DNA of 64,000 nt. Origin: a virus. Location of the stretch: positions 483,944-547,943 of IMG/VR virus record IMGVR_UViG_3300033145_003233; one strand, 5' to 3'. Every line of letters starts with the position of its first letter. Position 1 is the stretch's first letter. The notes under the pieces were generated by a model. The model did not search any database. It was not told the origin of the DNA and was given only the letters and a program-made list of their open reading frames with translations. A program made the position numbers and the translations under genes. Shown in pieces: positions 2,507 through 64,000 of this stretch.

Positions 2507-2524
2507 AAGAATATATTTTCATAA

Positions 2525-46262: not shown

Positions 46263-46961
46263 TTAAACATATATCACATTTATATTGTTATTTGACCTAA
46301 TCTTTCTAAATGTAGTATATAAATGAAAATTTATATTTGGAAAAGCATCACATAAATGATAAAATGTTTTTATCATCCCCTCTCTAAATCCGTTATAAAT
46401 TTCTGCCCCTTTCTTTTTTGGCAGATCATGTTCCTCTCTAGCGAAATAAGGTTTTACATTTCTATTATAAAAATCCACCCCTATAATATATATGTTTTTA
46501 GGATTAAAATAAGTAGCAAACAAAATAGATGCCATTCCTGTAGAATAAAGACTAGATTCATCATCTATTTTATTTATCAATTCACAATGTCTTTTATTAT
46601 ATCCCACCACTTTTAAATCTGGAAACTTTTTAACACATTCTTTATAATCGTCAGTACCTTCTTGAGATTTTAGCTGAATATTTTTAATACCCAACTTCTG
46701 ACAATGATATTTTGAAGTTCTATATCTATCATACTGTATCACGCACAACACAATATTTTTGCCCAGCAAGTATTTCCCTATATAATCTAAAGAATTATTG
46801 AATTCTCCCGCCAAATAACAATAATTAAATTTTTTATAGCACAAATCTAGTCTAGACACAGAAGGACCTCTTGCTATAACTCCTATATTTTCTGCTTTAA
46901 AAAAATCAGAATCTTTGTACTGGAGAGAAGCACGATATATTTTATCTTCAAATGTTAGCAT
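46263..46961 (-). CDS. DUF115 / GT42 sialyltransferase-like glycan enzyme (232 aa)
   Basis: Near the N-terminus is I-G-V-I-A-R-G-P-S-V, the nucleotide-sugar loop of GT42/DUF115-like enzymes. Near residue 140 is Y-S-T-G-M-A-S-I-L-F-A, then N-P-K-N-I-Y-I-I-G-V-D-F-Y, the second signature (G-M-A ... I-G-x-D). Other catalytic residues are not certain. Start is ATG 46961 (a TTG lies 3 bases before). It lies between fibre genes, so it may modify fibre or host surface glycans. Confidence 0.65.
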   Translation of the reverse strand: MLTFEDKIYRASLQYKDSDFFKAENIGVIARGPSVSRLDLCYKKFNYCYLAGEFNNSLDYIGKYLLGKNIVLCVIQYDRYRTSKYHCQKLGIKNIQLKSQEGTDDYKECVKKFPDLKVVGYNKRHCELINKIDDESSLYSTGMASILFATYFNPKNIYIIGVDFYNRNVKPYFAREEHDLPKKKGAEIYNGFREGMIKTFYHLCDAFPNINFHLYTTFRKIRSNNNINVIYV

Positions 46962-46970
46962 CAAAATATT

Positions 46971-47804
46971 TTATGTTGTGATATCTAAACTTTCTTTAAT
47001 AGCTAGAATCAATGCTTGATCAGCAGAAAGCTCACCAGCACTAACCATCTCTACCAATTTATCTTCCTTCTCTTCGGTTGTTAGACCAACAAATAATGGG
47101 TGGTACTGTTGATATAATGCTTCCATCTCTTCCTCTGTATACTTCCTCAAGATAAATGGGTCGATAGCTCCATGGGCAGAAGACGATGGAGGAGCCGAAG
47201 ACGAAGACGAAGAAGATAATGAAGACGAAGACGAAATCGAAGATGAAGAAGACGAAGAAGATATCGAAGACGAAGATGAAGACGATGATGAAGATAGCGA
47301 AGACGATGATGAAGATGAAGAAATCGAAGATGAAGAACTTGAAGACAACGAAGATGACGAACTTGAAGACGACAATGAAGACGAACTTGAAGACGACAAT
47401 GAAGACGAACTTGAAGATGACCTTGAGGACGAAGACGAAGACGAACTCGAAGAAGATAATGACGAAGACGAAGATGATGAACTTGAAGAAGATAATGACG
47501 ATGACGAAGATGAAGAACTTGAAGAAGATAATGACGAAGATGAAGAACTTGAAGAAGATAATGACGAAGATGAAGAACTTGAAGAAGATAATGACGAAGA
47601 TGAAGAACTTGAAGAAGATAAACTTGAAGATGACGATGATGACGAAGAAAGCGAAGATGAAGAAGACAGAGATGACGAAGAAGACGAAGAGGATGAAGAT
47701 GAGGAAGAAGCAACCCCAGGATAAAAATTAAATGTTTTAGTTGCCGCACCTTCACTGATAGTTAAAACTCTTCCATCAAGAAAAAATGTTCTTGGCCCTG
47801 CCAT
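46971..47804 (-). CDS. Poly-Ser stalk protein with C-terminal 'EKE..MV' domain (277 aa)
   Basis: A ~30-residue head (MAGPRTFFLDGRVLTISEGA) is followed by ~170 residues of poly-Ser with occasional Leu, Ile and Arg, then a C-terminal cap 'L-T-T-E-E-K-E-D-K-L-V-E-M-V' and 'A-I-K-E-S-L-D-I'. That ~38-residue cap is also found after the poly-Ser stalks of the 548-aa LamG protein and, out of frame, after the 580-aa one. The stalk DNA is almost all GAA/GAC-type triplets, so it is repeat-prone. Likely a fibre or spike element. Confidence 0.78.
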   Translation of the reverse strand: MAGPRTFFLDGRVLTISEGAATKTFNFYPGVASSSSSSSSSSSSSLSSSSSLSSSSSSSSSLSSSSSSSSSLSSSSSSSSSLSSSSSSSSSLSSSSSSSSSSSLSSSSSSSSSSSLSSSSSSSSSSSRSSSSSSSLSSSSSSSLSSSSSSSSLSSSSSSSISSSSSSSSLSSSSSSSSSSISSSSSSSSISSSSSLSSSSSSSAPPSSSAHGAIDPFILRKYTEEEMEALYQQYHPLFVGLTTEEKEDKLVEMVSAGELSADQALILAIKESLDITT

Positions 47805-49011: not shown

Positions 49012-49126
49012 TTAATCCCTAATTTTTCTTGAATAGCTATATAAACTGCTTCATAAGCTGTTATTTTTCCGTCCCCGACCATCTTAATAATAAAGGTTTC
49101 TTTTTCAGAGTTGGTTAAATCTACTT
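49012..49126 (-). repeat. 115-bp exact repeat (copy 1), orphaned cap domain
   Basis: Identical to 50915-51029. On the minus strand it encodes V-D-L-T-N-S-E-K-E-T-F-I and on to E-K-L-G-I, the C-terminal cap of the 548-aa protein. Here it lies just past the stop of the 580-aa LamG gene and is in a different frame from it. Confidence 0.92.
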
Positions 49127-50860
49127 ACTTAGGCTTGAACTACTTTGGCTTGAGCTACTTGAACTTGAGCTACTTACACTAGAACTACTTGAGCTAGAGC
49201 TACTTAAACTTGAACTACTTGAGCTTGAGCTACTTAAGCTTGAGCTACTCAGGCTAGAACTACTTGAGCTTGAGCTACTTGAGCTTGAACTACTTGAACT
49301 GCTTGAGCTACTTTCAATAGGTAGACAACCATTCAAATTTTCAGTTCCACACTCAATTGATGGATTATAGCAATTAAACAGACCATTAACCTCATTGCCA
49401 GTTAGTGCTCTATTAAATAATATTACATTATCAATTTTACCATTGAATAAACCATAATTATAAGGATCAGAGCCAACAACAAAAGCTCCTCCAGAATCAG
49501 CCAAACCATTAGTAGGAGCAGCACTTGCATCATAAGAACTACCTGCTACTGTATTAACATATATTTTACTATTTGTGCCATCATATGTAGCAACAATATG
49601 ATACCAGTCTCCAAGATTATCAGCAGCAAAATCGAACTTAGCTGCTTCATCATAATTATTCCATACATAATTATTTGTTACCCAGAATCTAATTTGATCT
49701 GTAGACAAGGTAGTGGCAGCACTTGCCCAATAAACAGCCCAACCATTGTTCCAACCACTATCAGTTACTTTTGAAACAAAAACTTCTTCAGAATTTAAAG
49801 CATCTGCATTCATCCAGAAAGAAACAGACATAGCGCCAGTTAATTCTATAGAAGAATGAGTTCCCATATTTATAGCATCATTATTGCCTGGAGTAAGGTC
49901 AACTGCATTACCAGTGACTCCATCAACATATGTCTCAACTCCAGAGTTCCCAGTATATTCACCATTATTGCTAGGATTAATTGAATCTGTTAAATCATTA
50001 TTAAATTTCCACTGAGCAAGAGCAGCATCTGAGACATCCCAAGTTCCAAATTCACAAGAAGAACTTGAAGAACTTGAAGAACTTGATAAACTTGAAGAGC
50101 TTGAAGAGCTTGAAGAACTTGAAGCGCTTGAAGCAGTCGGATATCCAGTAACAATCTTTACGGAAGCACCTGTTGTTTTTGTTATTATTTTGCCTCCATC
50201 AGTACGAATCCTTAATCCAGGAGTGGCCCCAGTGTAGATATAAGAATCTCCGAATAAAATAGCGGTCTCTGCATCAATAACATCCCTGCCATCTATAGTA
50301 AATGGCCACCAATGAATTAGCTTTCCGCTACCAGCTCCGACCGTCATGAATTGAGAATTCCTGCCAAGATTATATAAGGAGGTAATCTCACTTTCTGTTA
50401 AATCATCATTAAATAACATTACATCGCAAATATAGCCACTCCATGGGTCCGTCTGGTGAGAACTTGCCCCTATCGACAAAGGGGTTAGCGTACTAGTAGC
50501 GGGATCTACCGCACCCGTAGCTTCTCCATCTATATCTCCATCAACATATATTTTATGATCTGCCCCATCGTATAAAACAACGATATGATGCCAAAGATTA
50601 TCACATACATTAACATTGTGTTCTAAACTTCCAGCATTAACAACAACTTTAATATATCCATCACTAGTTGTTAGTATGTCCCATGCTAGATTACCAGGGT
50701 CATCCCAAAGCCCATATCCAAAAATATATCGCCCTGTAAAGCTCGTCTTGAACCATGCAGCAAAAGATCTGGACGAAGCACCGGCTATGTCATCACCAGT
50801 ATAATCAGGAGTATAGGCGTAATCAGCGCCTCCTGGCAAAACTAAATATCCTCTACTCAT
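49121..50860 (-). CDS. LamG adhesin with poly-Ser linkers, C-terminal cap lost by frameshift (579 aa)
   Basis: Start ATG 50860 (S-R-G-Y-L-V-L-P-G-G) follows AGGTGA. Domains in order: LamG-type lectin domain (residues ~1-235, W-W-P-F-T and D-G-Y-I-K-V-V), short poly-Ser, a second LamG (residues ~280-500, 'G-T-N-S-K-I-Y-V-N-T-V' and 'D-N-V-I-L-F-N-R-A-L'), then a poly-Ser tail with the end S-S-L-S-K. The tail runs into a stop inside the 115-bp repeat, so the cap present in its paralogue is no longer translated in frame. A one-base change at the stalk junction is the likely cause. Confidence 0.85.
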   Translation of the reverse strand: MSRGYLVLPGGADYAYTPDYTGDDIAGASSRSFAAWFKTSFTGRYIFGYGLWDDPGNLAWDILTTSDGYIKVVVNAGSLEHNVNVCDNLWHHIVVLYDGADHKIYVDGDIDGEATGAVDPATSTLTPLSIGASSHQTDPWSGYICDVMLFNDDLTESEITSLYNLGRNSQFMTVGAGSGKLIHWWPFTIDGRDVIDAETAILFGDSYIYTGATPGLRIRTDGGKIITKTTGASVKIVTGYPTASSASSSSSSSSSSSLSSSSSSSSSSCEFGTWDVSDAALAQWKFNNDLTDSINPSNNGEYTGNSGVETYVDGVTGNAVDLTPGNNDAINMGTHSSIELTGAMSVSFWMNADALNSEEVFVSKVTDSGWNNGWAVYWASAATTLSTDQIRFWVTNNYVWNNYDEAAKFDFAADNLGDWYHIVATYDGTNSKIYVNTVAGSSYDASAAPTNGLADSGGAFVVGSDPYNYGLFNGKIDNVILFNRALTGNEVNGLFNCYNPSIECGTENLNGCLPIESSSSSSSSSSSSSSSSSSSSLSSSSLSSSSSSSSSLSSSSSSSSSVSSSSSSSSSQSSSSLSK

Positions 50861-50904
50861 TATTCTCACCTATTATTTTAAATAATATCTTTATTTTTTA
50901 ATCC

Positions 50905-52551
50905 CTAATTCTTTTTAATCCCTAATTTTTCTTGAATAGCTATATAAACTGCTTCATAAGCTGTTATTTTTCCGTCCCCGACCATCTTAATAATAAAGGT
51001 TTCTTTTTCAGAGTTGGTTAAATCTACTTCAGTAAATACAAAGAATTGACCATGAACTGATTCTTCACTTGAACTACTTGAACTACTTAGGCTTGAACTA
51101 CTTGAGCTAGAGCTACTTAAACTTGAACTACTTAGGCTAGAACTGCTTGAGCTAGAGCTACTTAGACTTGAGCTGCTTGAGCTACTTAGACTTGAGCTAC
51201 TTAGGCTAGAGCTACTTGAGCTAGAGCTACTCTGACTTGAACTTGAACTTGAACTTGAACTTGAGCTTGAGCTTGAACTCGAACTAGGTAATAGAGGCAA
51301 ACAACCAGACAATTCTTCTGTTCCACATTCAATTGATGGATCTTGACAATTATAAAGACCTATAACTTCAGTACTGGTTAACGCTCTATTAAATAATATT
51401 ACATTATCAATTCTGCCATCAAATGTTTGATATGTATCCACCATGTCCCCAATACCCATTGCCGCCCCAGAATCAGCTAACCCTCCAGGGTTGCCAGCTG
51501 AAACATCATAAGGACTACCTGCTACTGTATTAATATATATTTTACTATTTGTTCCATCATATGTAGCTACAACATGATACCAGTCTCCTGTATTGTCAGC
51601 AGGAAAATCAAATTTAGCAGCTTCAAGATAATTAACCCATACATAATTATCTGTCACCCAAAATCTAACTTGATTAGGACTTGTTGCATTTGTCCAATAA
51701 ACAACCCACCCATTCTGCCAATTAGCATCTATTTTTGAAATCATTATCGGTTCAGATGTTAATGTATCTGCATTTATCCAAAAAGAAACGGACATAGCAG
51801 CAGTTAATTCTATAGAGTGATGAGTTCCTACATTTATGTGCTCTAAATTCCCAGGATTAAAATCTACTGCATTGCCAGTAACACCGGCAGCATATGTTTC
51901 AACAGTACCAGTTCCAGCATATTCACCATTATTACTAGGATTAATTGAATCTGTTAAGTCGTCATTAAATTTCCACTGAGCAACTGCTGCATTAATAACA
52001 TCCCAGGAACCGAACTCACAACCAGCCGATTCCCATGTTCCATTTTTAGCTATTGTAGCCCAATCTCCATTCTCGTCAGAAATTAATGTGATACAAGAAC
52101 CTATAGTAGAAGATGTCTTATACGCTCCAGTAACTACCCCACTATCATCCCTAATAGTAGAATTGGCCCCAGGGTCAATCCTAAATTCTTCTGACTCCTG
52201 AACTTCAAATGTAAAAACTATTCCTTCCGAAGCTGCTTTTGGCAAAGATAATATTATCAAATCATTTGCCCCAAGATTACTATGTACACTCCCTGATTCT
52301 TCTTCAGTTAGAATATCATTATTAGTATGGAATTCGATTCTTTCCCCCTCCTGATAAGATGGGCTTCCTACAATAAGTTGTTCTAACGTATATGTTCCAA
52401 CCACAGCATCTTTAAAAGTTAAATTAGAAGCTTTACCTTCCCATATTTGGGTATTGATATCATCAAAATATATATTATTTGGACCTTTAACATATAGATC
52501 TTCCGCGACTATTAAATCCCCGTATGTAGTTGTGGTTCTTAATTTAGCCAT
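50905..52551 (-). CDS. Fibre-head + LamG + poly-Ser + cap adhesin (548 aa)
   Basis: Start ATG 52551 (M-A-K-L-R-T-T-T-T-Y-G-D), overlapping the stop of the upstream gene as TAATG. Order: fibre-head domain (~190 residues), LamG domain (W-K-F-N-D-D-L-T-D-S-I-N to D-N-V-I-L-F-N-R-A-L), ~90-residue poly-Ser stalk with Leu spacers, and the complete cap (V-H-G-Q-F-F-V-F-T-E-V-D-L-T-N-S-E-K-E to I-K-K-N). This is the most complete member of the series. LamG domains bind carbohydrate, so it is probably a receptor-binding fibre. Confidence 0.87.
   Translation of the reverse strand: MAKLRTTTTYGDLIVAEDLYVKGPNNIYFDDINTQIWEGKASNLTFKDAVVGTYTLEQLIVGSPSYQEGERIEFHTNNDILTEEESGSVHSNLGANDLIILSLPKAASEGIVFTFEVQESEEFRIDPGANSTIRDDSGVVTGAYKTSSTIGSCITLISDENGDWATIAKNGTWESAGCEFGSWDVINAAVAQWKFNDDLTDSINPSNNGEYAGTGTVETYAAGVTGNAVDFNPGNLEHINVGTHHSIELTAAMSVSFWINADTLTSEPIMISKIDANWQNGWVVYWTNATSPNQVRFWVTDNYVWVNYLEAAKFDFPADNTGDWYHVVATYDGTNSKIYINTVAGSPYDVSAGNPGGLADSGAAMGIGDMVDTYQTFDGRIDNVILFNRALTSTEVIGLYNCQDPSIECGTEELSGCLPLLPSSSSSSSSSSSSSSSSSQSSSSSSSSSLSSSSLSSSSSSSLSSSSSSSSSLSSSSLSSSSSSSSSLSSSSSSSEESVHGQFFVFTEVDLTNSEKETFIIKMVGDGKITAYEAVYIAIQEKLGIKKN
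50915..51029 (-). repeat. 115-bp exact repeat (copy 2), in-frame cap
   Basis: Identical to 49012-49126. Here it codes, in frame, for the C-terminal cap of the 548-aa adhesin. Confidence 0.92.
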
Positions 52552-53312
52552 TATAGCTGTTCTTTTATCTCTCCAAAAACGTACCAATTATCTAAATTTA
52601 ATTGCATATTTGTCATAGAGGCTGCGTCAGTATCGAACATTTTTGATAGCACTCCTATTTCTGGAAGAGGAGATTCAATATGAACATAAGCATCTCCTTG
52701 AATAACACCATGATTAAGACCCTTTTTATCACTAGCATCTACAGTAAAAGGCCACCAAGAAATTAGATTATCATATGTAGAAAGATCTGATACCTGATTA
52801 TTATTAGGGTTCCTGCCTAAATCATAAATCTCTTGAATGTCTGATTGCGTTAAATACTCATCAAAAAACATTACATCAGAAAAATTCCCTTCAAAATCAG
52901 AAGATAAAACAGTCGATACACCCATAACTACAGGGTCAGAAGAACCATCTGAAGCTAATGCACTTAAAGCACCTGAATTATTTGCAACCCCAGCATCAAT
53001 ATATAGATATGCAGTATCATCACTAGTATCAAAAGCTACTGCAACAAAGGTCCAAATGTTAGTAGGTATAATATCTACAGAATCTATAAGGCCTACATGA
53101 GAAGCTACTCTAAGCTTGTTTGACGAATTAATAATAATAAAACGAAAATGAGATATACCACTATCTCCATAATCTAAAATACAACTGTTTTTAGTGGAAT
53201 TCCAGTATACCCAAGCACAAACTGTCCTTGATGCGTTCCCCGAAACACCTGTATAACTAGTACTAATATAATCATCTGAACCCTGTAAAACCAAATATCC
53301 ACTATTACTCAT
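52551..53312 (-). CDS. LamG adhesin without stalk (253 aa)
   Basis: MSNSGYLVLQGSDDY matches the N-terminus of the 579-aa paralogue. One LamG domain ('R-T-V-C-A-W-V-Y-W-N', 'D-T-A-Y-L-Y-I-D-A-G', 'S-D-V-M-F-F-D-E-Y-L') is followed by W-W-P-F-T-V-D-A-S and a short unique end with no stalk. Coupled to the downstream gene by TAATG. Confidence 0.85.
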   Translation of the reverse strand: MSNSGYLVLQGSDDYISTSYTGVSGNASRTVCAWVYWNSTKNSCILDYGDSGISHFRFIIINSSNKLRVASHVGLIDSVDIIPTNIWTFVAVAFDTSDDTAYLYIDAGVANNSGALSALASDGSSDPVVMGVSTVLSSDFEGNFSDVMFFDEYLTQSDIQEIYDLGRNPNNNQVSDLSTYDNLISWWPFTVDASDKKGLNHGVIQGDAYVHIESPLPEIGVLSKMFDTDAASMTNMQLNLDNWYVFGEIKEQL

Positions 53313-53324
53313 TATTTTTCCTAT

Positions 53325-54008
53325 TTAAACCAATTTTTTATTATATATTCTAAAATCAAACATCAAACCATTAAAAGCAGTTAAAGCAGAACTATCAGGA
53401 TTATCTCCTATCCTATTAACATCTATATCTCCAGCAAGCACAACTTCTCCAACATGAACAGCATCTAAATAAAATTGAAAAACATTATTGCTAGTATGTG
53501 TAATAACAAAATTAAACCATTTATTAACAGGACAAGAATCTGTTAAATTCACCGCCTCATTACTAGCTGTAGTAGTATAAATAGCTAACTGAGCAGGACT
53601 TTTGAAACTTATTGCTCCACTAGGACTAGTTATAGTGTGATCATCTTGATTACCAGCTATACCATCATCGCCATATGATATTTTGTATCCCCAAAATGAC
53701 CAAGACCATTCTGCCCCATCATTACACTCAACAATAGAATCTAAATTAATTTTATCATTATTATAATTAGTAAAATCATAACACCCTCTATCTCTTGGAG
53801 CAGTATAATTCAACATGAGATCAGCACTAGGAGATGTCACTGTCCCATGATTCATATTGCCGCTTAAATCTCTAGCATGGCCGTCCATAGGCCAATATCC
53901 TATTAGTGCATCTGTAGGACCAACCTCAGAAAAAGAATCGCTGTATATATTCCCCTGTTTATCAATATAATTATTTTTGTCAGAAGCTAAATGTTCTCTT
54001 AACACCAT
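53325..54008 (-). CDS. LamG domain protein (227 aa)
   Basis: A short leader (M-V-L-R-E-H-L-A-S-D-K-N) is followed by one LamG domain: 'G-Y-W-P-M-D-G-H-A-R-D-L-S-G', a Ca-binding-like 'D-D-G-I-A-G-N-Q-D', 'N-V-F-Q-F-Y-L-D-A-V' and 'M-F-D-F-R-I-Y-N-K-K-L'. Overlaps the upstream gene by 10 bases. The repeated LamG genes in this block probably arose by tandem duplication. Confidence 0.83.
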   Translation of the reverse strand: MVLREHLASDKNNYIDKQGNIYSDSFSEVGPTDALIGYWPMDGHARDLSGNMNHGTVTSPSADLMLNYTAPRDRGCYDFTNYNNDKINLDSIVECNDGAEWSWSFWGYKISYGDDGIAGNQDDHTITSPSGAISFKSPAQLAIYTTTASNEAVNLTDSCPVNKWFNFVITHTSNNVFQFYLDAVHVGEVVLAGDIDVNRIGDNPDSSALTAFNGLMFDFRIYNKKLV

Positions 54009-55309
54009 AAATTCCCATTTTTATCTAAAGCTGCACTTGTTTTATATAATCTTAATACTTCATCAGCGGAGAATACCTTATTGTAAAGTCTCATATCTGT
54101 TATGTGACCAACATAATCTCTTCCTCCGACTCCAGCTTCTCCCACTGTTATCCCAGATTGCACGTCCATATCTCCACCAGATAAAAGAGTTTTCTGTTCT
54201 TGATTACCATCTATATAAACAATACCATAACTTCCATCATAAGTACAACAAATATGATGCCATACGTCATCAACAATAGAAAATGTAGCATCAGTGTACT
54301 CAACACTTTCGATGTCAACTCCCCATCTTACTGTGGTATTATTTATATGAATACCATAAGAAGATGAAAACGATGAAGAAATGTCCCCATGAAAAACAGT
54401 GTCCGTTCCAGTAATAGAATTTGCTACCTTAATCCAGATACTAATAGTTATCTTATCAACAAAAACAACTGGAAAATCAGTTGAATTAATCTCAATTTTA
54501 ACAGCATCAGCACCCGTAGGAAAATAATAAGAACCAACTCCTTTCCCAGTATCTGATGACCATGTTAATGCATCAGCGCCTATAATAGCATGATGTCCAT
54601 AATCACTACTATCTACAACAACTTCTCCAGTAGCCGTTCTATCTAAATCACATTTCCAATGCAATACTTTTGCTTCTGCTAAATTTTGTATCTCTTGAAG
54701 AGATAATTTATGATCATAAATCCTAACATCATTTATAAGACCTTCAAAACTATTATCAACAGTAGGGCCAGGATAATCTAATTCCCCCCCTATCCCCATA
54801 AAATTACTACTTTCCACATCTGAATTCATCTCCGTATCTTTGCCCAACCCATCAAACTCTCCATCTACATATCCCACAACCTTATCCGTTATAACATCAT
54901 ATATATAACAAACATGATACCATCTATTAAAACTTATAACATGCTCCCCAGTAACTGTTATATTATTGCTATGACCCAATCTCATTCTTTTTATGCTGGA
55001 AACAGTAGCAATGCGCCATAATCTCTGCTGCCATCCGCTTTCATCTCCCTTATTTATAGATACTATTTCTGCCCCACCGACATCAGGAATATTGGTTAGA
55101 TATATCCATGCGCACATAGTATAAGATTTTCCAACAAGATATGGAATGACATCATTTATAGAGACATAAGATCCAGAACCATCAAAGGAACCAGCTTGTC
55201 CTATTATGCCTCCAGTGTCCCATGTAACATCTGTATTTATTCCATGAGCACCATTTATAGAGCTATCATTAACATCCCCATTTAATTTCCACCATCCGAC
55301 AAGAGACAT
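53999..55309 (-). CDS. Double LamG adhesin (436 aa)
   Basis: Start ATG 55309 (M-S-L-V-G-W-W-K-L-N-G-D) after GGGGAG. Two LamG domains (~210 residues each): 'V-G-W-W-K-L-N-G-D-V-N-D-S' and later 'H-W-K-C-D-L-D-R-T', each with the 'V-R-I-Y-D-H-K-L' or 'M-R-L-Y-N-K-V-F' end motif. Ends with D-K-N-G-N-L-W-C. Carbohydrate-binding, probably tail-fibre-linked. Confidence 0.85.
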   Translation of the reverse strand: MSLVGWWKLNGDVNDSSINGAHGINTDVTWDTGGIIGQAGSFDGSGSYVSINDVIPYLVGKSYTMCAWIYLTNIPDVGGAEIVSINKGDESGWQQRLWRIATVSSIKRMRLGHSNNITVTGEHVISFNRWYHVCYIYDVITDKVVGYVDGEFDGLGKDTEMNSDVESSNFMGIGGELDYPGPTVDNSFEGLINDVRIYDHKLSLQEIQNLAEAKVLHWKCDLDRTATGEVVVDSSDYGHHAIIGADALTWSSDTGKGVGSYYFPTGADAVKIEINSTDFPVVFVDKITISIWIKVANSITGTDTVFHGDISSSFSSSYGIHINNTTVRWGVDIESVEYTDATFSIVDDVWHHICCTYDGSYGIVYIDGNQEQKTLLSGGDMDVQSGITVGEAGVGGRDYVGHITDMRLYNKVFSADEVLRLYKTSAALDKNGNLWC

Positions 55310-55370
55310 ATTTCTCCCCAAAAAAAAGATTCTATACTATTTATTTTCCACTTTAACAACATAAAAACCT

Positions 55371-57692
55371 CTATTCAGATAATAGACTATATGTTAATAT
55401 TTTATCTTCATGCTCTCTTTCATTATAATGCAATCTTATTAACCAATTAATACACTTCTTATCTAAAGCCTTTGCCCACTGATTATGACCTATTTTTGTT
55501 GAATAAATAATTTTATTATTGTCTCTATTAATAAATTCAACTAAATATTTTTCCCATGGATTACCTCCCTTTAATTTAACATAAGGACCATCCCGAAGAA
55601 CACAATTCCAGAATATAGGACGATTAAAAAACTTTATACCATTTTTTTCTTTATAATTTATTATTTTATTAGCGTCACTAAGAATATTAGCTGTCATTTC
55701 ATCTTCATAATATTCTTTTATAGTTTCTTGGGTTTTTTTATTTTTTTCTACATCAGCATAAACAACATCTATATCTAACTCAATAAAACTCCCAGTCAAA
55801 TACCCTACATCTTCCATATAACTATCTGTATGAGCGCTTAAACTCAGATGCCCTAATATCTCATATATTTTTCTACCAACTATTGGAGCAAGATTGGCAC
55901 ATATCCTCTTTCTTTCCCCATCTTTCTCAGAATAAACAACCGGAGCAATAATTGATAAAGTATCTGCTTGGGATTTTATGATAGAATCCCATCCTTTAGT
56001 TTTAATACTAAAATCACCACCATAACAAAGAATAAAATCTCCTTCACTAATAGCCGCTAATTCATTCTGATATTTGAATAAACCCTGATAGCCAAATCTA
56101 GGACCAGTAATAATATTAATGCTAAGCTCATTAATAATTGGATTAGAATTCAACTTATCAATAGTTTCGACATCATCTTCATCCAACCGAATAAAAGCCT
56201 CTACTTCATCTGGATTGTCGGCAAGAGAAAATAAATTATTTAAACTACTTAGCAGATTGTCCACACCATCTATCCCCCTGTGAGGAATAATAGCTGAAAA
56301 TTTCTTTTTATTTTTACCTATTATTTTATCTATTCTTTCAATAACCATATCTGGAGTGATTGTAGTTGTACATTCAAAATCTTTTTTATGAGGGCACCAA
56401 TACCAATCTCCTCTATCAAAAATAATATCTTCATCATTCATACAACCATTACACACATCTGAATTATGTATTCTCTCCACCCCAGATTCAAATTCATTAA
56501 AAGGAGTAGTACATCCTGAAATTAAAATTGTAGGAGTCCCGATAGCCCAGGATAACCACGACAATCCAGAGCTAATTCCTATAAACATATCAGCATATTT
56601 TAAATCAATAATTCTATCTTCAATAGAAATAGGCCCTGTTTTATTTATAATCCCATCAGGAGGAACATTGCCCATATATAATCCCTCTTCCTTAGAAATA
56701 AAAACAACTTCATATCCTTTCTTATTTAAATAATCTATCACTTTTTGCCACCCATCGGGATAATTCCAATATTTACACTGTGCGGTAGCATGTATCCCTA
56801 TGCATACATATTTGTCCTTAATATTTCTTGGCTTACTAGGAATTGTTATTTTTGACCGGATTTCCTTATATTCTAATCCCAATATATCAGAGGCTATCTT
56901 AGGAATAGGGGTTCTTCTCCAATCTTCTTTATTCCTATCAAGATCATTATCCCAACAACCTATTGTATATTGAGCATATAGGTTTTGGACGGGGGAATCT
57001 GGGTCAATAAATTCTATTTCAGGATATTGATCTTCAAATAATTTATTCCAAAATGTTGATAATATCACATGGCATTCATGTTTCTTTCTAAATTCCTCAA
57101 CCTGAGGAAGCCACCCTATATTATCTCCTAGAGATTTACTATCAAAACTGATCAGGACTCTTTTGTTGCTTAAATTAAATTTATGTTCAAATATAGTTGT
57201 GTCATATGTACTTATGCTTAGTAGCCATTCAGTAAAATATTTTCTATTCGGCCGTGCCCAATGATTCGGCATTAATAAATCACTGTATAGAATAGAACCA
57301 TCTGCCGCATCCTTAAATTCAAATTTATAAAGCTTCTGATCTTCACTCTTTAATTCCATATATGCCCCATTAATGAAATTAAATATAACTTTTATATCCC
57401 CATCACCAACAGTAGACTTGGTTATTTTGGGTGTATCATCATAATCTCCTAATAAATCATCATCATCTCTTTCTATATCATAACTAATATAACAATCATT
57501 AACCACCTCTCCACATTCGATAAAACCATCTATATCAATCATCTCTGTTTTTAAGATGTCATTAAACTTACTAGCTATAAATAATTTACAATCATGTTCT
57601 TTTTTATATTCTACAGCTTGGATACACCATCTGAATACTTCTTCAAAATAATTAGATAGTAAATTTATTTGTACATTTTTCCCCTCATGCAT
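55371..57692 (-). CDS. TibC-like protein O-heptosyltransferase fused to a GT-A domain (773 aa)
   Basis: Residues ~100-460 match the bacterial autotransporter heptosyltransferase (TibC/AAH) layout: a beta-rich N-domain 'Y-M-E-L-K', then 'V-L-I-S-F-D-S-K-S-L-G-D-N-I-G-W-L-P', 'L-S-T-F-W-N-K-L-F', 'I-G-I-H-A-T-A-Q-C-K-Y-W-N', and 'G-I-S-S-G-L-S-W-L-S-W-A'. Four Cys at 414, 417, 433 and 441 (C-N-G-C ... W-C-P-H ... E-C-T) reproduce the iron-finger motif of that family. Residues ~465-640 are a GT2-like domain (S-A-I-I-P-H-R-G, R-L-D-E-D-D). The C-terminal ~60 residues repeat the N-domain pattern. TibC adds heptose to Ser of autotransporters; the adjacent poly-Ser fibres are obvious candidate substrates. 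Confidence 0.82.
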   Translation of the reverse strand: MHEGKNVQINLLSNYFEEVFRWCIQAVEYKKEHDCKLFIASKFNDILKTEMIDIDGFIECGEVVNDCYISYDIERDDDDLLGDYDDTPKITKSTVGDGDIKVIFNFINGAYMELKSEDQKLYKFEFKDAADGSILYSDLLMPNHWARPNRKYFTEWLLSISTYDTTIFEHKFNLSNKRVLISFDSKSLGDNIGWLPQVEEFRKKHECHVILSTFWNKLFEDQYPEIEFIDPDSPVQNLYAQYTIGCWDNDLDRNKEDWRRTPIPKIASDILGLEYKEIRSKITIPSKPRNIKDKYVCIGIHATAQCKYWNYPDGWQKVIDYLNKKGYEVVFISKEEGLYMGNVPPDGIINKTGPISIEDRIIDLKYADMFIGISSGLSWLSWAIGTPTILISGCTTPFNEFESGVERIHNSDVCNGCMNDEDIIFDRGDWYWCPHKKDFECTTTITPDMVIERIDKIIGKNKKKFSAIIPHRGIDGVDNLLSSLNNLFSLADNPDEVEAFIRLDEDDVETIDKLNSNPIINELSINIITGPRFGYQGLFKYQNELAAISEGDFILCYGGDFSIKTKGWDSIIKSQADTLSIIAPVVYSEKDGERKRICANLAPIVGRKIYEILGHLSLSAHTDSYMEDVGYLTGSFIELDIDVVYADVEKNKKTQETIKEYYEDEMTANILSDANKIINYKEKNGIKFFNRPIFWNCVLRDGPYVKLKGGNPWEKYLVEFINRDNNKIIYSTKIGHNQWAKALDKKCINWLIRLHYNEREHEDKILTYSLLSE

Positions 57693-57695
57693 GCC

Positions 57696-58487
57696 TTATC
57701 TCCACATATACAACATTTGGATATGATTATTAGCCCCCAGGAATAAAGCATGGGTATGAAAACCTGAAGATAAAAATCTATTCAATAATTGATCTCTCCT
57801 ACTCTTATCAAAGTAAAACATAAAATTATGATATTCCATACATATTTTATTTATTTTCAAAAGATTATGATCAGAGATACCTTTAAAGATGTCTAATTCC
57901 GACCCTTCTGCATCAATCTTTAAGAAATCTATATGAGATTTAATATTATCTAAAAAATAATTGAGAGAAATACATCCGATAATTTGTGTCTCTCCTGTTT
58001 TTGTATTATTAGTATCATTATTTAAAATAGTATGCCCACCAGTATATTTATCTATATTTAAAAAACTCACTTTATTTTCATTAGAAAACCCAAAATTATA
58101 AACTTTTTGATTACTAGATTGATTTCTTTCCAGGCAATAAAAACTTTTTATCTCTGGCTCAAATGAGAATATTTCTCTTCCACCATTCATATAAGCATAC
58201 CTACTGAATATCCCAACATTAGCTCCTATATCAACAACAATATCTCCTTTTTCTACCTTGCATTGATTATAAGAATAATTTTCCTGCTCAAATATTTCTG
58301 CATATATGCAACAAACTGTTTCATAATCTTTTCGATTATCCCATACAAATCCCATGGATTCTTCATATAAATTCATTTTCTTCAAAAAACCATCATCTGA
58401 TACAATCACAAAATCATCATTAGATATAATTGGAGATGGATCTACCACCCTAGTATCTCTATAAACATTTTTTAATTCATCGTACAT
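57696..58487 (-). CDS. FkbM-family methyltransferase (263 aa)
   Basis: It has the SAM-binding motif V-V-D-I-G-A-N-V-G-I-F-S-R near residue 85, followed by 'F-S-F-E-P-E' and 'D-F-L-K-I-D-A-E-G-S-E-L-D-I-F-K', the FkbM signature (methylation of sugar or glycan hydroxyls). Coupled to the 1126-aa gene (stop overlaps start) and to the heptosyltransferase gene 4 bases further on. Probably methylates the sugar added to fibre proteins or the host surface. Confidence 0.88.
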   Translation of the reverse strand: MYDELKNVYRDTRVVDPSPIISNDDFVIVSDDGFLKKMNLYEESMGFVWDNRKDYETVCCIYAEIFEQENYSYNQCKVEKGDIVVDIGANVGIFSRYAYMNGGREIFSFEPEIKSFYCLERNQSSNQKVYNFGFSNENKVSFLNIDKYTGGHTILNNDTNNTKTGETQIIGCISLNYFLDNIKSHIDFLKIDAEGSELDIFKGISDHNLLKINKICMEYHNFMFYFDKSRRDQLLNRFLSSGFHTHALFLGANNHIQMLYMWR

Positions 58488-61400
58488 TATTTTTCTATTC
58501 CCAACAAAGACAATATTCTTTCAGCATCTTTCTCATTCTCTCCGGTTAGAAAATCAACATTTTCTTTTTCATCATATTTGCCGCAATAAGTTTCTAGATT
58601 ACGCATCAAAACAGGCATCTTCCAACCTAACGCCTCTTTTATAACAACTGGATTACACTCTACCTTAGAAGGAAACAAAAACAAATCCATAGACCCATAA
58701 AAGTTATCTACATCATTTCTTTCTCCCCATATAACACAATTAGAAGATTTATTTTTCATTAAGGGAGACCAATAATGTGCAAAATTACTAGCCTGATTAC
58801 CAACAAAATGAAACTTGATATTCTTATCTTTAAGTAAGAGAGCTATATTAAAAATTTCTTCCTGATTTTTACCAGGAGTAAACAATCCGACATGCAGAAC
58901 ATGGAGGTCACTTGGATTTAATCCTAATTTTTTTAAAGTATCTTCCCTAGAAAGCCTCTCTTTTAACTCTATGGGATATTCTATTACTTCCATAGGAACA
59001 TCAAAATTTTTATACTTTTTTAAATGCCAAGGACTAACAAATAAAAATTTATCTGGTATCCATCTTTTATGAATATCTGGATTAAAAGTAGAATTATGAG
59101 ATGTCTCATATATTGAATATTCTCTATACTCATCATATAACTCTCTACCCAACTCATCAGGAAAACCACTAAAATCAAACAACTCTGGAGCTTCTTCAAT
59201 ATGAACTATATCTGGATTAATTTTTTCTATTATATCTATTAATTTTAATCTATTTCTTACATGAGTTTCTTGATCTTCGTTCAAATTACCTAAAGTATAG
59301 AATTTATCTTCCCCCACCATCTCTATAATAGCATTTCTCTGCACTATAAATCCAGGACCATAAAAAGTGAATTCGACAACATAAATATTAAAATCATCTT
59401 TCATAAGTTCTATTGTTTTTCTTAAAAATTCCGGCATCCCCCCAGTTGAAAGATGTGGAGCAACAAATAAAATTTTTCTCCTATTATCGTTTTCTCCCGC
59501 ATCAATAATATCAAATTTATGTAACAGATCATTATCTTTAACCAAAGATTCTATATACTCTCTTTTCTCTCCACCTGATAAACTTTTTATTTTATCAGAT
59601 ATTATATCATCAGGGTTATTATTTACGACAGTATAAACTTCCTTTAATTTATTAATATTCTCCATAAAAGGAGATCTTGAATATGTTTTTGCTCTATCTC
59701 GAAGAAAATCTATTTCGGTATAAACGAGAAAAACCACATCAAAATCATGGATATATTCAAGAGAATCATTTCCTATCATAATTAATTTTTCAAAACTCCT
59801 CATCCGTTCAAGATGTTCCTTTGTTATATGAGAAAACTCATCACTCATATTCTCTTTAGTAGGTTGAGGATATCCCTCTCCTAAAGAATTATATCCATAC
59901 TCTAAAGTTCCTAAATCATCAATAATAACAAAATCTTTTAAATTATTATTTTCTGCAATAACTTTTCGTATGCATGATTTACCTGAGCTACTTTTCCCGA
60001 TAATAGCTATTTTATTATTCCTACTACAAACATCCAATATTTTTTCTTCTATATTTTTAATATCAACCGTATCTCTAGAACATCTAAAAAACGGTCTACT
60101 ATTAGAAACATCTCCCTTATAGACTATCTCTGTAAAATCTGTATAATCTAAAATATTTCTCATATATTTTTTATAATGTTGAGAATGATGGCCTTCAAAA
60201 TACATAACTTTTTTAGTTCTATTAGATGCTTTGGTTAGTCCCCCATACCTATTTTGTAATTCAATAGTATCTATAACAGAAAGATATAAAACAACATCAA
60301 AATCCGTCAATTGATGCCAGCACAAAGGGCTATCAATATCATCAATATAAAAATCAATATCTAAATTTAATTTTTCATTTAATTCAATAGCTTTTTTGAT
60401 AGCTGTTAAGTCATAATCAATTCCTACTACTTTTTCTGCCCCCCAATTTTTAGACTGAATTGACATTTGCCCCATATTACACCCTACATCCAAAACTGAA
60501 GCTCCGTCAAAATCAGCATTATTAAAATACTGCACCCTGGAAACAACAGAACGCCCCCCTTTGATATTTAAATCTGGTATTTCATGATATCCCGTAAACC
60601 AATTATCACGTTTTGTATAAGGTTGACAATGTTCGTCATTTTCAAAGATTGTACGGGAATAAACTAAATCCCCATCTTCCCCAAAAATTTCAAATATAAT
60701 ACCTTTTAGAGTATGTTTGAGTCTATTCGGCATAAACCAATAAGAGCTTCTGGGATGTAAAATAAATTTATCACTATAAAAATTAGTGTACTCTCCAATC
60801 CCCCTAAGAGCCACAAGATGTCTTTCTACTCCAAAATCAACAAGAGAATGAAAACTTACTTTGATGCGATCAGGATTCTCTAAAAACTCACATTTAATTT
60901 CCATTTTATCTCTAGCATCATAAAATTTTCTATTTCTTAAAATATCTCCAACCTTTTTTAAAACCTGATCTACATTAGGATGACACCCAAATTCGCTCTT
61001 ATTTTCTAAGCAACCTTTTAGTGGTGGTATGCCATGAATATTCCCATGTTCTTCTAACCCATATTTTATATTAGAGGCACAGAATAAATCACAATCCCCC
61101 AAAACATAATCATATTTATAATCTTGACTTCCTCCTCTGAAGGGAGATCTAAATTTAGGATTAATAGAACTGCCTAGCTGAATAATATTTGCATCAGTAG
61201 TGCCAGCCAAATGTAATATACCACTATCCATAACAACTACACATTCTGATTTATTTATAATATGCCAACACTGAGATAAATTAGTTTTATTTAACAGATT
61301 CAACCCAATAGAAATATTGATATCAAAAACAAATTTATCAGGATCATTTGATTTATGACAAAAATCCCTACCGATAGCAACCACAGCAATATTATTATCA

Positions 61401-61867
61401 TTCAATTCATTAATCAATTTTTGCCATTTATTTTTCCCCCAACTTCTAGATTCCCAGGTCATAGTAGGATGAACCACAGCATACCTATCCGGTAAATTGT
61501 CCACCAACTCATATTTATTAGGATAAAAATCTAAAGAACATTCTGAAGGCAAGAGCTGCATACCCATATAGGCAGCATGATATTGCACGATATGCATTCT
61601 ATTATGTTTTAATTCCCCATCCTCTTTAAATAATTTCTGCTCTGGCGTGCCTATTATATGAATAAGAAATTTATTAGATTCTTCATTATAATTTTTATTT
61701 GAGATATTAAAATTATGCTTTACATATGGGTTGTTATCAAAAACCTCTGGGAGATAAGAAAAAACAGTTATTTTTTCATCATATGTCTCATATAACTTTC
61801 TAAGGATGGGAGTAGAGCATAATATATCCCCCATTCCGACACAATCAATCCACAAAGCTTTATCCAT
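58487..61867 (-). CDS. Four-domain glycan enzyme: GT9 + methyltransferase + P-loop + GT4 (1126 aa)
   Basis: Domain 1 (residues ~1-320): GT9-like (V-G-M-G-D-I-L-C-S-T-P, H-P-T-M-T-W-E-S-R-S-W, V-V-M-D-S-G-I-L-H-L-A-G) with a Cys-rich end. Domain 2 (~410-610): class I methyltransferase (S-V-L-D-V-G-C-N-M-G-Q-M). Domain 3 (~620-780): P-loop NTPase/kinase-like (I-I-G-K-S-S-S-G-K-S). Domain 4 (~795-1126): GT4 glycosyltransferase (L-F-V-A-P-H-L-S-T-G-G-M-P, V-G-L-F-T-P-G-K-N-Q-E-E, F-P-S-K-V-E-C-N-P-V-V-I-K-E-A). Such a chain suggests sequential glycan assembly. A promoter-like motif in an inverted repeat lies directly upstream. Confidence 0.83.
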   Translation of the reverse strand: MDKALWIDCVGMGDILCSTPILRKLYETYDEKITVFSYLPEVFDNNPYVKHNFNISNKNYNEESNKFLIHIIGTPEQKLFKEDGELKHNRMHIVQYHAAYMGMQLLPSECSLDFYPNKYELVDNLPDRYAVVHPTMTWESRSWGKNKWQKLINELNDNNIAVVAIGRDFCHKSNDPDKFVFDINISIGLNLLNKTNLSQCWHIINKSECVVVMDSGILHLAGTTDANIIQLGSSINPKFRSPFRGGSQDYKYDYVLGDCDLFCASNIKYGLEEHGNIHGIPPLKGCLENKSEFGCHPNVDQVLKKVGDILRNRKFYDARDKMEIKCEFLENPDRIKVSFHSLVDFGVERHLVALRGIGEYTNFYSDKFILHPRSSYWFMPNRLKHTLKGIIFEIFGEDGDLVYSRTIFENDEHCQPYTKRDNWFTGYHEIPDLNIKGGRSVVSRVQYFNNADFDGASVLDVGCNMGQMSIQSKNWGAEKVVGIDYDLTAIKKAIELNEKLNLDIDFYIDDIDSPLCWHQLTDFDVVLYLSVIDTIELQNRYGGLTKASNRTKKVMYFEGHHSQHYKKYMRNILDYTDFTEIVYKGDVSNSRPFFRCSRDTVDIKNIEEKILDVCSRNNKIAIIGKSSSGKSCIRKVIAENNNLKDFVIIDDLGTLEYGYNSLGEGYPQPTKENMSDEFSHITKEHLERMRSFEKLIMIGNDSLEYIHDFDVVFLVYTEIDFLRDRAKTYSRSPFMENINKLKEVYTVVNNNPDDIISDKIKSLSGGEKREYIESLVKDNDLLHKFDIIDAGENDNRRKILFVAPHLSTGGMPEFLRKTIELMKDDFNIYVVEFTFYGPGFIVQRNAIIEMVGEDKFYTLGNLNEDQETHVRNRLKLIDIIEKINPDIVHIEEAPELFDFSGFPDELGRELYDEYREYSIYETSHNSTFNPDIHKRWIPDKFLFVSPWHLKKYKNFDVPMEVIEYPIELKERLSREDTLKKLGLNPSDLHVLHVGLFTPGKNQEEIFNIALLLKDKNIKFHFVGNQASNFAHYWSPLMKNKSSNCVIWGERNDVDNFYGSMDLFLFPSKVECNPVVIKEALGWKMPVLMRNLETYCGKYDEKENVDFLTGENEKDAERILSLLGIEK

Positions 61868-61952: not shown

Positions 61953-62735
61953 TTATAAGAAATTAAAATCTATAGTTTCAGTAACTTCGTTATAAACCAT
62001 TTCTGCTTTAGAGTCAAAAGGATCGCTTTGTTCTTTCATTTGAAAAGCATCTGATTCGATATATCCTAATATATTTAAAGTTCCGCCCCAATCTCCAGAT
62101 GGACCTGACATAGGATCAACAACAAGATCATTCCCATCGAAATAAATACTACCACTATTGATTGTTCCCATAAAAATTCTTTTTCCATCAGCAAAGAACA
62201 TATGATCATCATCATCTACAATAATGCCCGTTTCTTCTAATTCTCCTATTGAGGGGTTATTATATACTGTTTTAACTAATCTATTATCATTAAAAACAGT
62301 AAGTGTAGCTCCACCACCTCCTGCTTCACCTGCTCCATCAGCCCCATCTTGACCAGAGCTTCCGCTACTTCCAGAAGATCCCGAACTTCCACTACTTCCT
62401 GAACTTCCAGAACTTCCTGATGTTCCACTACTACCTGAAGTTCCTGACGAACCACTACTACCTGAACTTCCTGATGTTCCACTACTACCTGAAGTTCCTG
62501 ATGAACCACTACTACCTGAGCTACCAGAAGATCCAGAAGAACCTGATGTTCCACTACTACCTGAACTTCCACTACTACCTGAAGAACCACTGCTGCCAGA
62601 AGTTCCACTACTTCCAGAACTACCTGAAGTCCCACTACTACCTGAAGTTCCTGACGAACCACTACTACCTGAACTACCTGAAGAACCGCTACTACCAGAA
62701 GTTCCTGAACTTCCTGAACTTCCACTACTAACTAC
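61953..62735 (-). CDS. Collagen-like tail fibre, C-terminal part (displaced by frameshift)
   Basis: From about 62735 down to the stop, the frame carries Gly-Ser-Ser/Thr repeats ending G-Q-D-G-A-D-G-A-G-E-A-G-G-G-G, then a ~110-residue C-terminal domain (T-L-T-V-F-N-D-N-R-L-V-K-T to T-I-D-F-N-F-L) with 'M-F-F-A-D-G-K-R-I-F-M-G' and 'S-I-Y-F-D-G-N-D-L'. This is the natural end of the fibre whose upstream part is in another frame. It has no start of its own; the open frame upstream to 63113 is an artefact of reading the Ser/Gly repeats out of phase. Confidence 0.7.
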   Translation of the reverse strand, partial: VVSSGSSGSSGTSGSSGSSGSSGSSGSSGTSGSSGTSGSSGSSGTSGSSGSSGSSGSSGSSGTSGSSGSSGSSGSSGSSGTSGSSGTSGSSGSSGSSGTSGSSGTSGSSGSSGSSGSSGSSGSSGSSGQDGADGAGEAGGGGATLTVFNDNRLVKTVYNNPSIGELEETGIIVDDDDHMFFADGKRIFMGTINSGSIYFDGNDLVVDPMSGPSGDWGGTLNILGYIESDAFQMKEQSDPFDSKAEMVYNEVTETIDFNFL

Positions 62736-62736
62736 C
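62724..62736 (-). other. 4-bp duplication (TAGTTAGT) that breaks the fibre frame
   Basis: All neighbouring repeat units read GGTAGTAGTGG on the minus strand; here it is GGTAGTTAGTAGTGG. The extra TAGT creates an in-frame TAG (62728-62730) and shifts the rest by one. It sits in low-complexity repeats, where slippage or a read error is easy. Confidence 0.85.
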
Positions 62737-64000
62737 AGAAGTTCCTGAACTTCCACTACTACCTGACGAACCTGAACTTCCACTACTACCAGAAGTTCCT
62801 GAACTTCCGCTACTGCCAGAAGAACCCGAACTACCTGATGTCCCGCTACTTCCCGATGTTCCTGACGAACCACTACTACCTGAACTACCTGAAGAACCGC
62901 TACTACCAGAAGTTCCTGAACTTCCACTACTACCTGAAGAACCTGAACTACCTGAGGTTCCACTACTACCAGAAGTCCCTGAACTTCCACTACTACCTGA
63001 ACTTCCTGAACTACCTGAGGTTCCACTACTACCTGATGAACCTGAAGAGCCACTACTACCTGAACTTCCACTACTACCCGAAGAACCCGAACTACCTGAT
63101 GTTCCCGATTCACCTACAGCACTGGGATCTGCTTCTATAAGAGTAGCATTTACCCAAGCTAAACCATTCCACTTTAAGTACTCATCAATTTGTATATTAG
63201 TAAGAGTAACATCACACAAATCTTCTACATTTAAACAACTTGAAGTAAGATTAAAAATTGTAGTGCAATAATAATTACCACCTATTTCAGTTACTGTGAT
63301 TTCGTCACCATTAACTAAACGAGGTGTAGCACTATTTAAGTCTTCATCTAGTGAAGGATTGTTACCTGCTATTAAGCAAATAACATTTGTAGGTGTTCCA
63401 CCTGGGGTATCTAAGTTACATAAAATAATATTACCTTCAGGAGCATCTTCCTGACAATAAGCTTTCTTACCATACGCAGAAACACCTGAGCTACCTGAAG
63501 AGCCTGAACTACCAGAAGAACCTGAACTTCCACTACTACCTGAAGTTCCTGACGAACCACTACTACCTGAACTTCCTGATGTTCCACTACTACCTGAGCT
63601 TCCTGAAGAACCTGATGTTCCACTACTACCTGATGTTCCCGAAGAACCACTACTACCAGAAGAACCACTACTACCTGAACTTCCTGATGTTCCCGAAGAA
63701 CCGCTACTTCCAGAACTTCCTGAGCTACCTGATGTTCCGCTACTACCTGAAGTTCCTGAAGAACCGCTACTTCCAGAACTTCCACTACTACCTGATGTTC
63801 CACTACTCCCTGAAGATCCACTACTACCTGAACTACCTGAAGATCCTGAGCTTCCTGATTCTCCTACAGCACTAGGATCTGCTTCCGTAAGAGTAGCATT
63901 AACCCATGCAGAACCATTCCACTTTAAGTATTCATCTAGTTTAAGATCAGTTAAAGTAACATCATCTAAATCTTCCAAATTGAAAGCTTCAGCAGCAAGA
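62728..64000 (-). CDS. Collagen-like tail fibre, N-terminal part (5' end outside window)
   Basis: The frame enters from the right edge; the first ~8 codons (A-A-E-A-F-N-L-E-D-L) lie before a possible TTG. Two copies of a ~40-residue domain (L-E-D-L-D-D-V-T-L-T ... K-W-N-G-S-A-W-V-N-A-T-L ... A-V-G-E-S-G) alternate with ~120-170-residue Gly-Ser-Ser/Gly-Thr-Ser collagen-like stretches. Between them is a beta-rich head (K-A-Y-C-Q-E-D-A-P-E-G-N-I-I-L-C). It stops at the 4-bp duplication. Together with the downstream part it forms one long fibre gene. The Ser/Thr stretch is a potential glycosylation target. Confidence 0.8.
   Translation of the reverse strand, partial: LAAEAFNLEDLDDVTLTDLKLDEYLKWNGSAWVNATLTEADPSAVGESGSSGSSGSSGSSGSSGSSGTSGSSGSSGSSGSSGTSGSSGTSGSSGSSGSSGSSGTSGSSGSSGSSGSSGSSGTSGSSGTSGSSGSSGSSGTSGSSGSSGSSGTSGSSGSSGSSGSSGSSGSSGVSAYGKKAYCQEDAPEGNIILCNLDTPGGTPTNVICLIAGNNPSLDEDLNSATPRLVNGDEITVTEIGGNYYCTTIFNLTSSCLNVEDLCDVTLTNIQIDEYLKWNGLAWVNATLIEADPSAVGESGTSGSSGSSGSSGSSGSSGSSGSSGSSGTSGSSGSSGSSGSSGTSGSSGTSGSSGSSGSSGSSGTSGSSGSSGSSGSSGSSGTSGSSGTSGSSGSSGSSGSSGTSGSSGSSGSSGSSGSSGTSGS

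Follow-up and report, generated by a model that had tools for sequence, protein, structure and literature searches.

Why would a giant bacteriophage encode a relative of TibC and AAH, bacterial enzymes that transfer heptose from the lipopolysaccharide (LPS) pathway onto Ser/Thr residues of partner proteins from their own operon (PMC3835316, PMC4358343), and which protein would such an enzyme modify? The question is raised by the window analyzed here, a stretch of 64,000 nucleotides that forms the final 64 kb of the 547,943-bp IMG/VR record IMGVR_UViG_3300033145_003233. A head protein encoded at contig positions 10648-11520 shares 55% identity with the major head protein of Bacillus phage G, and we therefore regard the 548-kb contig as a phage G-like giant tailed phage. 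Across phages, a TibC relative adjoins a Gly/Ser/Thr-rich collagen-like fibre, which indicates that these viruses probably glycosylate their own fibres. From such sequence evidence, we put at about two in three the probability that the window phage O-glycosylates its own collagen-like fibre, probably with host-derived ADP-heptose.

The TibC gene is part of a minus-strand block in which the collagen-like fibre is followed by a multi-domain enzyme, an FkbM gene, the TibC enzyme, five LamG proteins and a Ser-dominated protein. The fibre and multi-domain enzyme genes are ~86 bp apart, and the latter overlaps the FkbM gene. In window coordinates, the features are:

62728-63978, minus strand: collagen-like fibre with two (G-S/T-S)n tracts and a globular repeat between them, reaching the contig end.
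61953-62732, minus strand: 3' part of the collagen-like fibre, (GSS/GTS)n followed by a C-terminal domain, in a different frame from the upstream part.
58487-61867, minus strand: multi-domain enzyme with GT9, methyltransferase, P-loop (weak) and GT4 domains (domain matches).
57696-58487, minus strand: FkbM-type methyltransferase, 3 bp upstream of the TibC gene (domain match).
55371-57692, minus strand: TibC-clade glycosyltransferase, 773 aa (profile, PDB sequence, fold and residues).
53999-55321, minus strand: LamG protein with two LamG domains and without poly-Ser, 49 bp downstream of the TibC gene.
53325-54008, minus strand: LamG protein (domain match).
52551-53312, minus strand: LamG protein (domain match).
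50905-52587, minus strand: LamG protein with a poly-Ser stalk, a possible additional acceptor.
49121-50869, minus strand: LamG protein with poly-Ser stalks, a possible additional acceptor.
46971-47804, minus strand: 277-aa protein, 58% Ser, with a poly-Ser(Leu) stalk and a C-terminal domain, a possible additional acceptor.

A previous sequence-only reading of this DNA had named the FkbM gene, the four-domain enzyme and the LamG proteins with poly-Ser, all of which are real according to domain matches and, for the last, sequence composition. The four parts of the multi-domain enzyme are GT9 (residues ~1-310), methyltransferase (~440-560), P-loop (~600-780, weak) and GT4 (~800-1126), and its GT4 part shares 46% identity with a region ~3.8 kb from the TibC gene in the huge phage LR756501. 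The sialyltransferase-like gene that the same reading had placed at 46263-46964 gave only a sub-threshold MptE-like match (E = 0.008). No autotransporter or AIDA domain was found among the ten window genes scanned.

The ORF, located at exactly 55371-57692, belongs to the phage clade of the TibC/AAH family of protein O-heptosyltransferases. Its residues 96-457 match TIGR04414 (autotransporter strand-loop-strand O-heptosyltransferase) with 325 bits (E = 5.9e-97) against a curated cut-off of 200 bits, which is also passed by 35 of the 36 phage records tested. The LPS heptosyltransferase models, in contrast, scored below their cut-offs (RfaQ, 28 bits vs 467; heptosyltransferase I, 15.7 vs 185). 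The only PDB sequence matches of the enzyme were the TibC entries 4rap/4rb4 (E = 1.5e-59). In an AlphaFold model built from 33 phage sequences, the TibC-like part (pLDDT ~94) had as best PDB matches TibC chains throughout (TM 0.87 of target), while other GT9 chains reached TM 0.61 at most. The beta-barrel plus GT-B layout is seen in the alignment of model strands 91-171 and the catalytic domain to TibC over ~388 columns; the Pfam model TibC_1st gave no match in the window protein.

Following the residue roles and numbering established for TibC (PMC4358343), the window enzyme keeps the catalytic Asp110, which is its own Asp190, together with Thr226, Lys230, Arg286 and Trp305, and all four Cys of the iron finger (Cys339/342/358/370 of TibC) are aligned, forming a predicted metal site. 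Position 300 is Ser, as in AAH, where TibC has Pro (PMC4358343), and the tip of the thumb hairpin (Phe265 and Val266 in TibC) corresponds to Tyr-Met in a hairpin three residues shorter. Profile, fold match and aligned residues thus bear out the autotransporter-heptosyltransferase layout and four-Cys finger claimed earlier. Among 59 phage sequences, the catalytic Asp and Trp305 are each present in 59, and Lys230 and each finger Cys in 58. Arg286, the adenine contact present in the window enzyme, is kept in only 17 of the 59, so the sugar donor may vary among phage enzymes.

Unlike TibC/AAH, the window enzyme carries additional parts. Residues 1-96 repeat part of the TibC N-lobe in degenerate form and lack the catalytic Asp, and residues 701-755 are a second copy of the TibC beta-barrel; both had been overlooked. 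The third addition, a module at residues ~461-680 that had been called GT-A, gave no match in Pfam, PHROG or PDB and folded poorly as a single sequence (pLDDT 41). Its beta-alpha-beta start, a DxD-like RLDEDD motif and 25%-identical relatives in four phage contigs, one of them clustered with GT2 and FkbM genes, hint at a possible GT-A-like module.

The nature of this enzyme bears on an alternative in which the cluster remodels the host surface (LPS/O-chain) against superinfection and lies beside the tail fibres as part of a shared host-recognition island. Glycosyltransferases in the host-recognition cluster of pelagimyophages have been read in this way (PMC7029224), and the window does encode a second, LPS-like GT9 as well as a GT4. 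However, the TibC-clade enzyme scores as a protein heptosyltransferase, unlike LPS enzymes, and it keeps the iron finger, which in TibC has roles in recognizing the acceptor and in the assembly of oligomers (PMC4358343). Taking into account also the type of fibre and the bacterial gene pair described below, we consider host-surface remodelling unlikely.

The fibre matches Pfam Collagen (E = 5.3e-37 and 7.5e-16) and is composed of (Gly-Ser-Ser/Gly-Thr-Ser)n tracts and globular repeats, with uninterrupted Gly-X-Y tracts of 42-43 triplets and a putative triple helix; the fibre was called collagen-like on the basis of uninterrupted Gly-X-Y runs of at least 10 triplets that match Pfam Collagen. The (Gly-Ser-Ser/Thr)n fibre noticed earlier is therefore real and can be further identified as collagen-like. 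Its reading frame breaks at ~62728-62732, and the fibre runs off the contig end; the frame switch may be an assembly error, a real frameshift or a regulated frameshift, which are indistinguishable here. Fibre ORFs resume at contig positions 1-5039 on the same strand, and within the 548 kb (GSS)n tracts or fibres were found at the two contig ends only, on the same strand and near the TibC gene. The presence of fibre genes at both record ends on the same strand suggests a circular or permuted genome, and the two ends would then belong to one fibre cluster that spans the junction and in whose repeats the assembly broke. A weak sulfotransferase-like gene (L008, 6813-7568) is situated between the fibre genes and that of the major head protein. 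In Microcystis phage Mel-JY01 (PP395634.1), an isolate that carries the pair and has its TibC domain at 7345-8427, the plus strand has an open frame for a collagen-like fibre at 2-3052, whereas the annotation over 1-3052 consists of two opposite-strand hypothetical proteins, a possible mis-annotation.

TibC relatives were found in only 4 of 50,697 isolate phage records yet at a minimum of 556 IMG/VR loci, which may be why the family has been missed; GTDB genomes yielded 102. The loci surveyed were the best-scoring 80 of at least 556, and counts were made on 61 non-redundant phage loci (>15% difference in the TibC domain). A fibre was counted when an ORF had at least ten Gly-X-Y triplets with Ser+Thr making up at least half of X and Y, and 41 of the 61 loci contained one. 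Among the 39 non-redundant loci of at least 17 kb, 31 had the fibre, vs 4 of 40 random 20-kb regions of the same records (p ~2e-10), the control records being those with long contigs rather than a random draw and all counts depending on ORF calling in metagenomic contigs. After clustering at 50% identity, the fibre was present in 12 of 15 loci (p 1e-6). One of the four control regions with a fibre (L523) has a second TibC gene adjoining that fibre. Terminase loci of Mel-JY01-like phages, used as a further control, had a fibre in 3/59 cases, and bacterial-genome TibC loci in 2/80, both belonging to the phage clade. The enzyme-fibre linkage is thus conserved relative to matched controls in dozens of unrelated phages, and the survey of phages for the gene pair that the sequence-only reading had proposed extends the link to Ser-rich fibres to other genomes. 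Fibre and TibC genes are direct neighbours in 12 loci; the fibre gene may lie upstream or downstream and on either strand, and because gene order and strand vary, the pairing is not one frozen, inherited operon. An exact-repeat DNA pattern applied to whole records was too strict for most of them.

The converse link is weaker: among loci picked by DNA pattern, TibC was found in the short flanks of 8 of 112 (G[ST][ST])n loci vs 1 of 119 Gly-Pro-X loci (p 0.016). The linkage is to Ser/Thr Gly-X-Y fibres, with a single Gly-Pro-X locus having TibC, which also speaks against host-surface remodelling. The remaining 104 of the 112 unselected Ser/Thr collagen loci have no TibC in their short flanks, indicating that such fibres need no local TibC, and other glycosyltransferases were not enriched near these fibres (5/104 vs 3/119 Gly-Pro-X loci). 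Thr is rare at Y in TibC-linked fibres, a feature that is also common in fibres without a local TibC. The asymmetry of Thr and Ser between X and Y was dropped as an argument for a Ser acceptor, since the controls are alike (>10% Thr at Y in 3/8 fibres with and 37/100 without a local TibC) and Aah accepts Ser or Thr (PMC3835316). A GT4 profile derived from LR756501 (GT4b) and a GT9 profile had apparently drifted into TibC and were kept out of the evidence.

These counts also bear on whether variable fibre islands simply gather glycosyltransferases of unrelated function, which would make the pairing biochemically meaningless. Consistent with such hitch-hiking, the TibC gene often lies within larger GT/FkbM clusters, and the majority of Ser/Thr collagen loci have no TibC nearby. 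However, control regions drawn from the same records rarely contain the fibre, the pairing withstands both the 50% identity clustering and changes of gene order, and in Polaromonas it exists as a bare two-gene pair; we therefore judge mere co-residence to be quite improbable. Of the 61 phage TibC loci, 32 had an FkbM gene, compared with 2 of the 40 control regions.

A further question is whether the poly-Ser LamG proteins are the main acceptors, as the sequence-only reading had weighted them, and the collagen-like fibre is incidental. Three poly-Ser proteins are encoded on the strand of the TibC gene, 3-10 kb downstream of it, and AAH/TibC do modify Ser/Thr, but poly-Ser runs showed no link to TibC (2/61 phage loci vs 1/40 control regions), a further poly-Ser protein is encoded ~250 kb from the TibC gene in the same genome, and phages without poly-Ser retain both TibC and the collagen-like fibre. 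Poly-Ser was accordingly dropped as a general TibC partner, and its role as principal substrate seems very improbable. The dedicated fibre O-glycosylation pathway proposed earlier therefore stands as regards the linkage (31/39 vs 4/40), with the collagen-like fibre instead of poly-Ser as the favoured substrate. The poly-Ser proteins lying ~250 kb apart (window 46971-47804 and 50905-52587; contig 281945-283462, that is, L022 1945-3462) resemble one another in their C-terminal tails (LT..EKE..L..M...GKLTAYEAVYIA..EKL), perhaps an attachment domain common to poly-Ser virion proteins.

Phylogenetic placement against TibC/AAH, also suggested earlier, separated phage from bacterial enzymes. In a tree of 132 sequences, the 59 phage sequences and three from contigs labelled as MAGs fell on one side of a branch with SH-aLRT 100, opposite TibC and 69 bacterial sequences. 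Phage genes are present on two of these MAG contigs. Contigs L116 and L118, from genomes labelled as Flavobacteriales (NAT55) and Chloroflexi (NAT137) MAGs, gave mostly phage-gene matches and are thus probably mis-binned phage. The third contig, from a Polaromonas MAG, has ordinary chromosomal neighbours. Here, the phage-clade TibC gene, coding for a 375-aa enzyme, lies 8 bp from a convergent gene encoding a 102-aa lipoprotein whose second half is (GTS/GSS/GTA)n. No LPS or other glycosyltransferase genes are evident alongside this pair, a further point against host-surface remodelling. In another genome of the same family, a bacterial-type TibC adjoins an autotransporter with AIDA repeats; it was the only further match in a search of 400 genomes of this family for more phage-clade TibC genes. 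The two kinds of TibC thus adjoin different repetitive, Ser/Thr-rich surface proteins, the picture expected of two substrate specificities. AIDA-like repeats were picked up in 22 of 77 bacterial loci by a crude regular expression, from which no rate is drawn.

Regarding the donor sugar, neither GmhA nor an HldE-type nucleotidyltransferase (RfaE domain II) nor PfkB was found in the genome of the window phage; phage-encoded ADP-heptose synthesis was therefore dropped for this phage, and an ADP-heptose donor would have to be the host's. Counting against the heptose reading, the head protein is similar to one from a phage that infects a Gram-positive host. Cytidylyltransferase-like genes near some TibC genes scored below the RfaE cut-off. 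In the 636-kb phage LR756504.1, a GmhA, the first enzyme of ADP-heptose synthesis, scores above the family cut-off at ~430182-430640 (L535), ~27 kb from the TibC gene. Distant from the window, five sugar-nucleotide epimerase/dehydratase genes are clustered at contig positions 313245-327861, and a phage with such a cluster may make its own activated sugars.

Under the favoured reading, fibre glycosylation would proceed as follows. Late in infection, the TibC-clade enzyme would transfer heptose from ADP-heptose, drawn from the host's LPS-precursor pool, to Ser/Thr hydroxyls of the (Gly-Ser/Thr-Ser)n fibre, encoded immediately upstream within this operon-like gene block. Extension of the glycan and its capping by methylation would probably fall to the adjacent GT9/GT4 enzyme and FkbM methyltransferase. 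The sugars would render the fibre rigid, hydrated and protease-resistant, and could perhaps stabilize a triple helix nearly without proline; a helping role of glycans has been proposed for other hydroxyproline-poor collagens, BclA for instance (PMC8968730). They might also act as the shield or receptor mimic suggested earlier. What we infer here is the transfer of a glycan, which sugar it is, the residue that accepts it and the gain for the virion. A broader proposal, to which we give slightly less than even odds, is that a TibC-derived clade forms a widespread, undescribed phage system that O-glycosylates (Gly-Ser/Thr-Ser)n tail fibres, replaces proline/hydroxyproline as triple-helix stabilizer and occasionally reaches bacteria as a two-gene enzyme-substrate pair.

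The phage enzymes resemble TibC of ETEC and AAH in their beta-barrel plus GT-B/GT9 fold, catalytic Asp, sugar-binding residues and four-Cys finger, and in forming a small system that adjoins the gene for a Ser/Thr-rich repetitive surface protein. They differ in constituting a separate clade of usually longer proteins, and in their partner, which is a collagen-like Gly-X-Y fibre and not an autotransporter of the beta-helical type. Mycobacteriophages likewise encode the glycosylation of their virion proteins, for which a shielding effect has been reported (Freeman et al., 2023, cited in PMC12619734). As that work is cited there, however, the glycans are at the C-termini of capsid/tail-tube subunits, and the system is not known to be of the TibC family or to involve collagen-like repeats. 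Bacillus BclA and the mimivirus collagen are glycan-bearing Gly-X-Y proteins, and the BclA glycans are thought to be helix-stabilizing; BclA is, however, bacterial and mimivirus infects amoebae, and neither is tied to a TibC-type enzyme in PMC8968730. The pelagimyophage host-recognition cluster places glycosyltransferases beside tail fibres, with collagen repeats noted, but it is read as modifying the host O-chain and names no TibC-type enzyme or fibre substrate (PMC7029224). A full-text search of a limited literature library returned no paper that connects TibC-type enzymes to phages or to collagen-like proteins.

If the proposed reading is true, it would assign a substrate to many phage glycosyltransferases usually interpreted as modifying LPS or DNA, and would extend the reach of the TibC/AAH family from adhesins to collagen-like proteins. 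The enzyme and its fibre would also provide a minimal enzyme-acceptor pair for asking whether sugars stabilize proline-free collagen. Finally, the receptor-contacting fibres of many aquatic phages would be glycoproteins, which would bear on both adsorption and recombinant fibre production.
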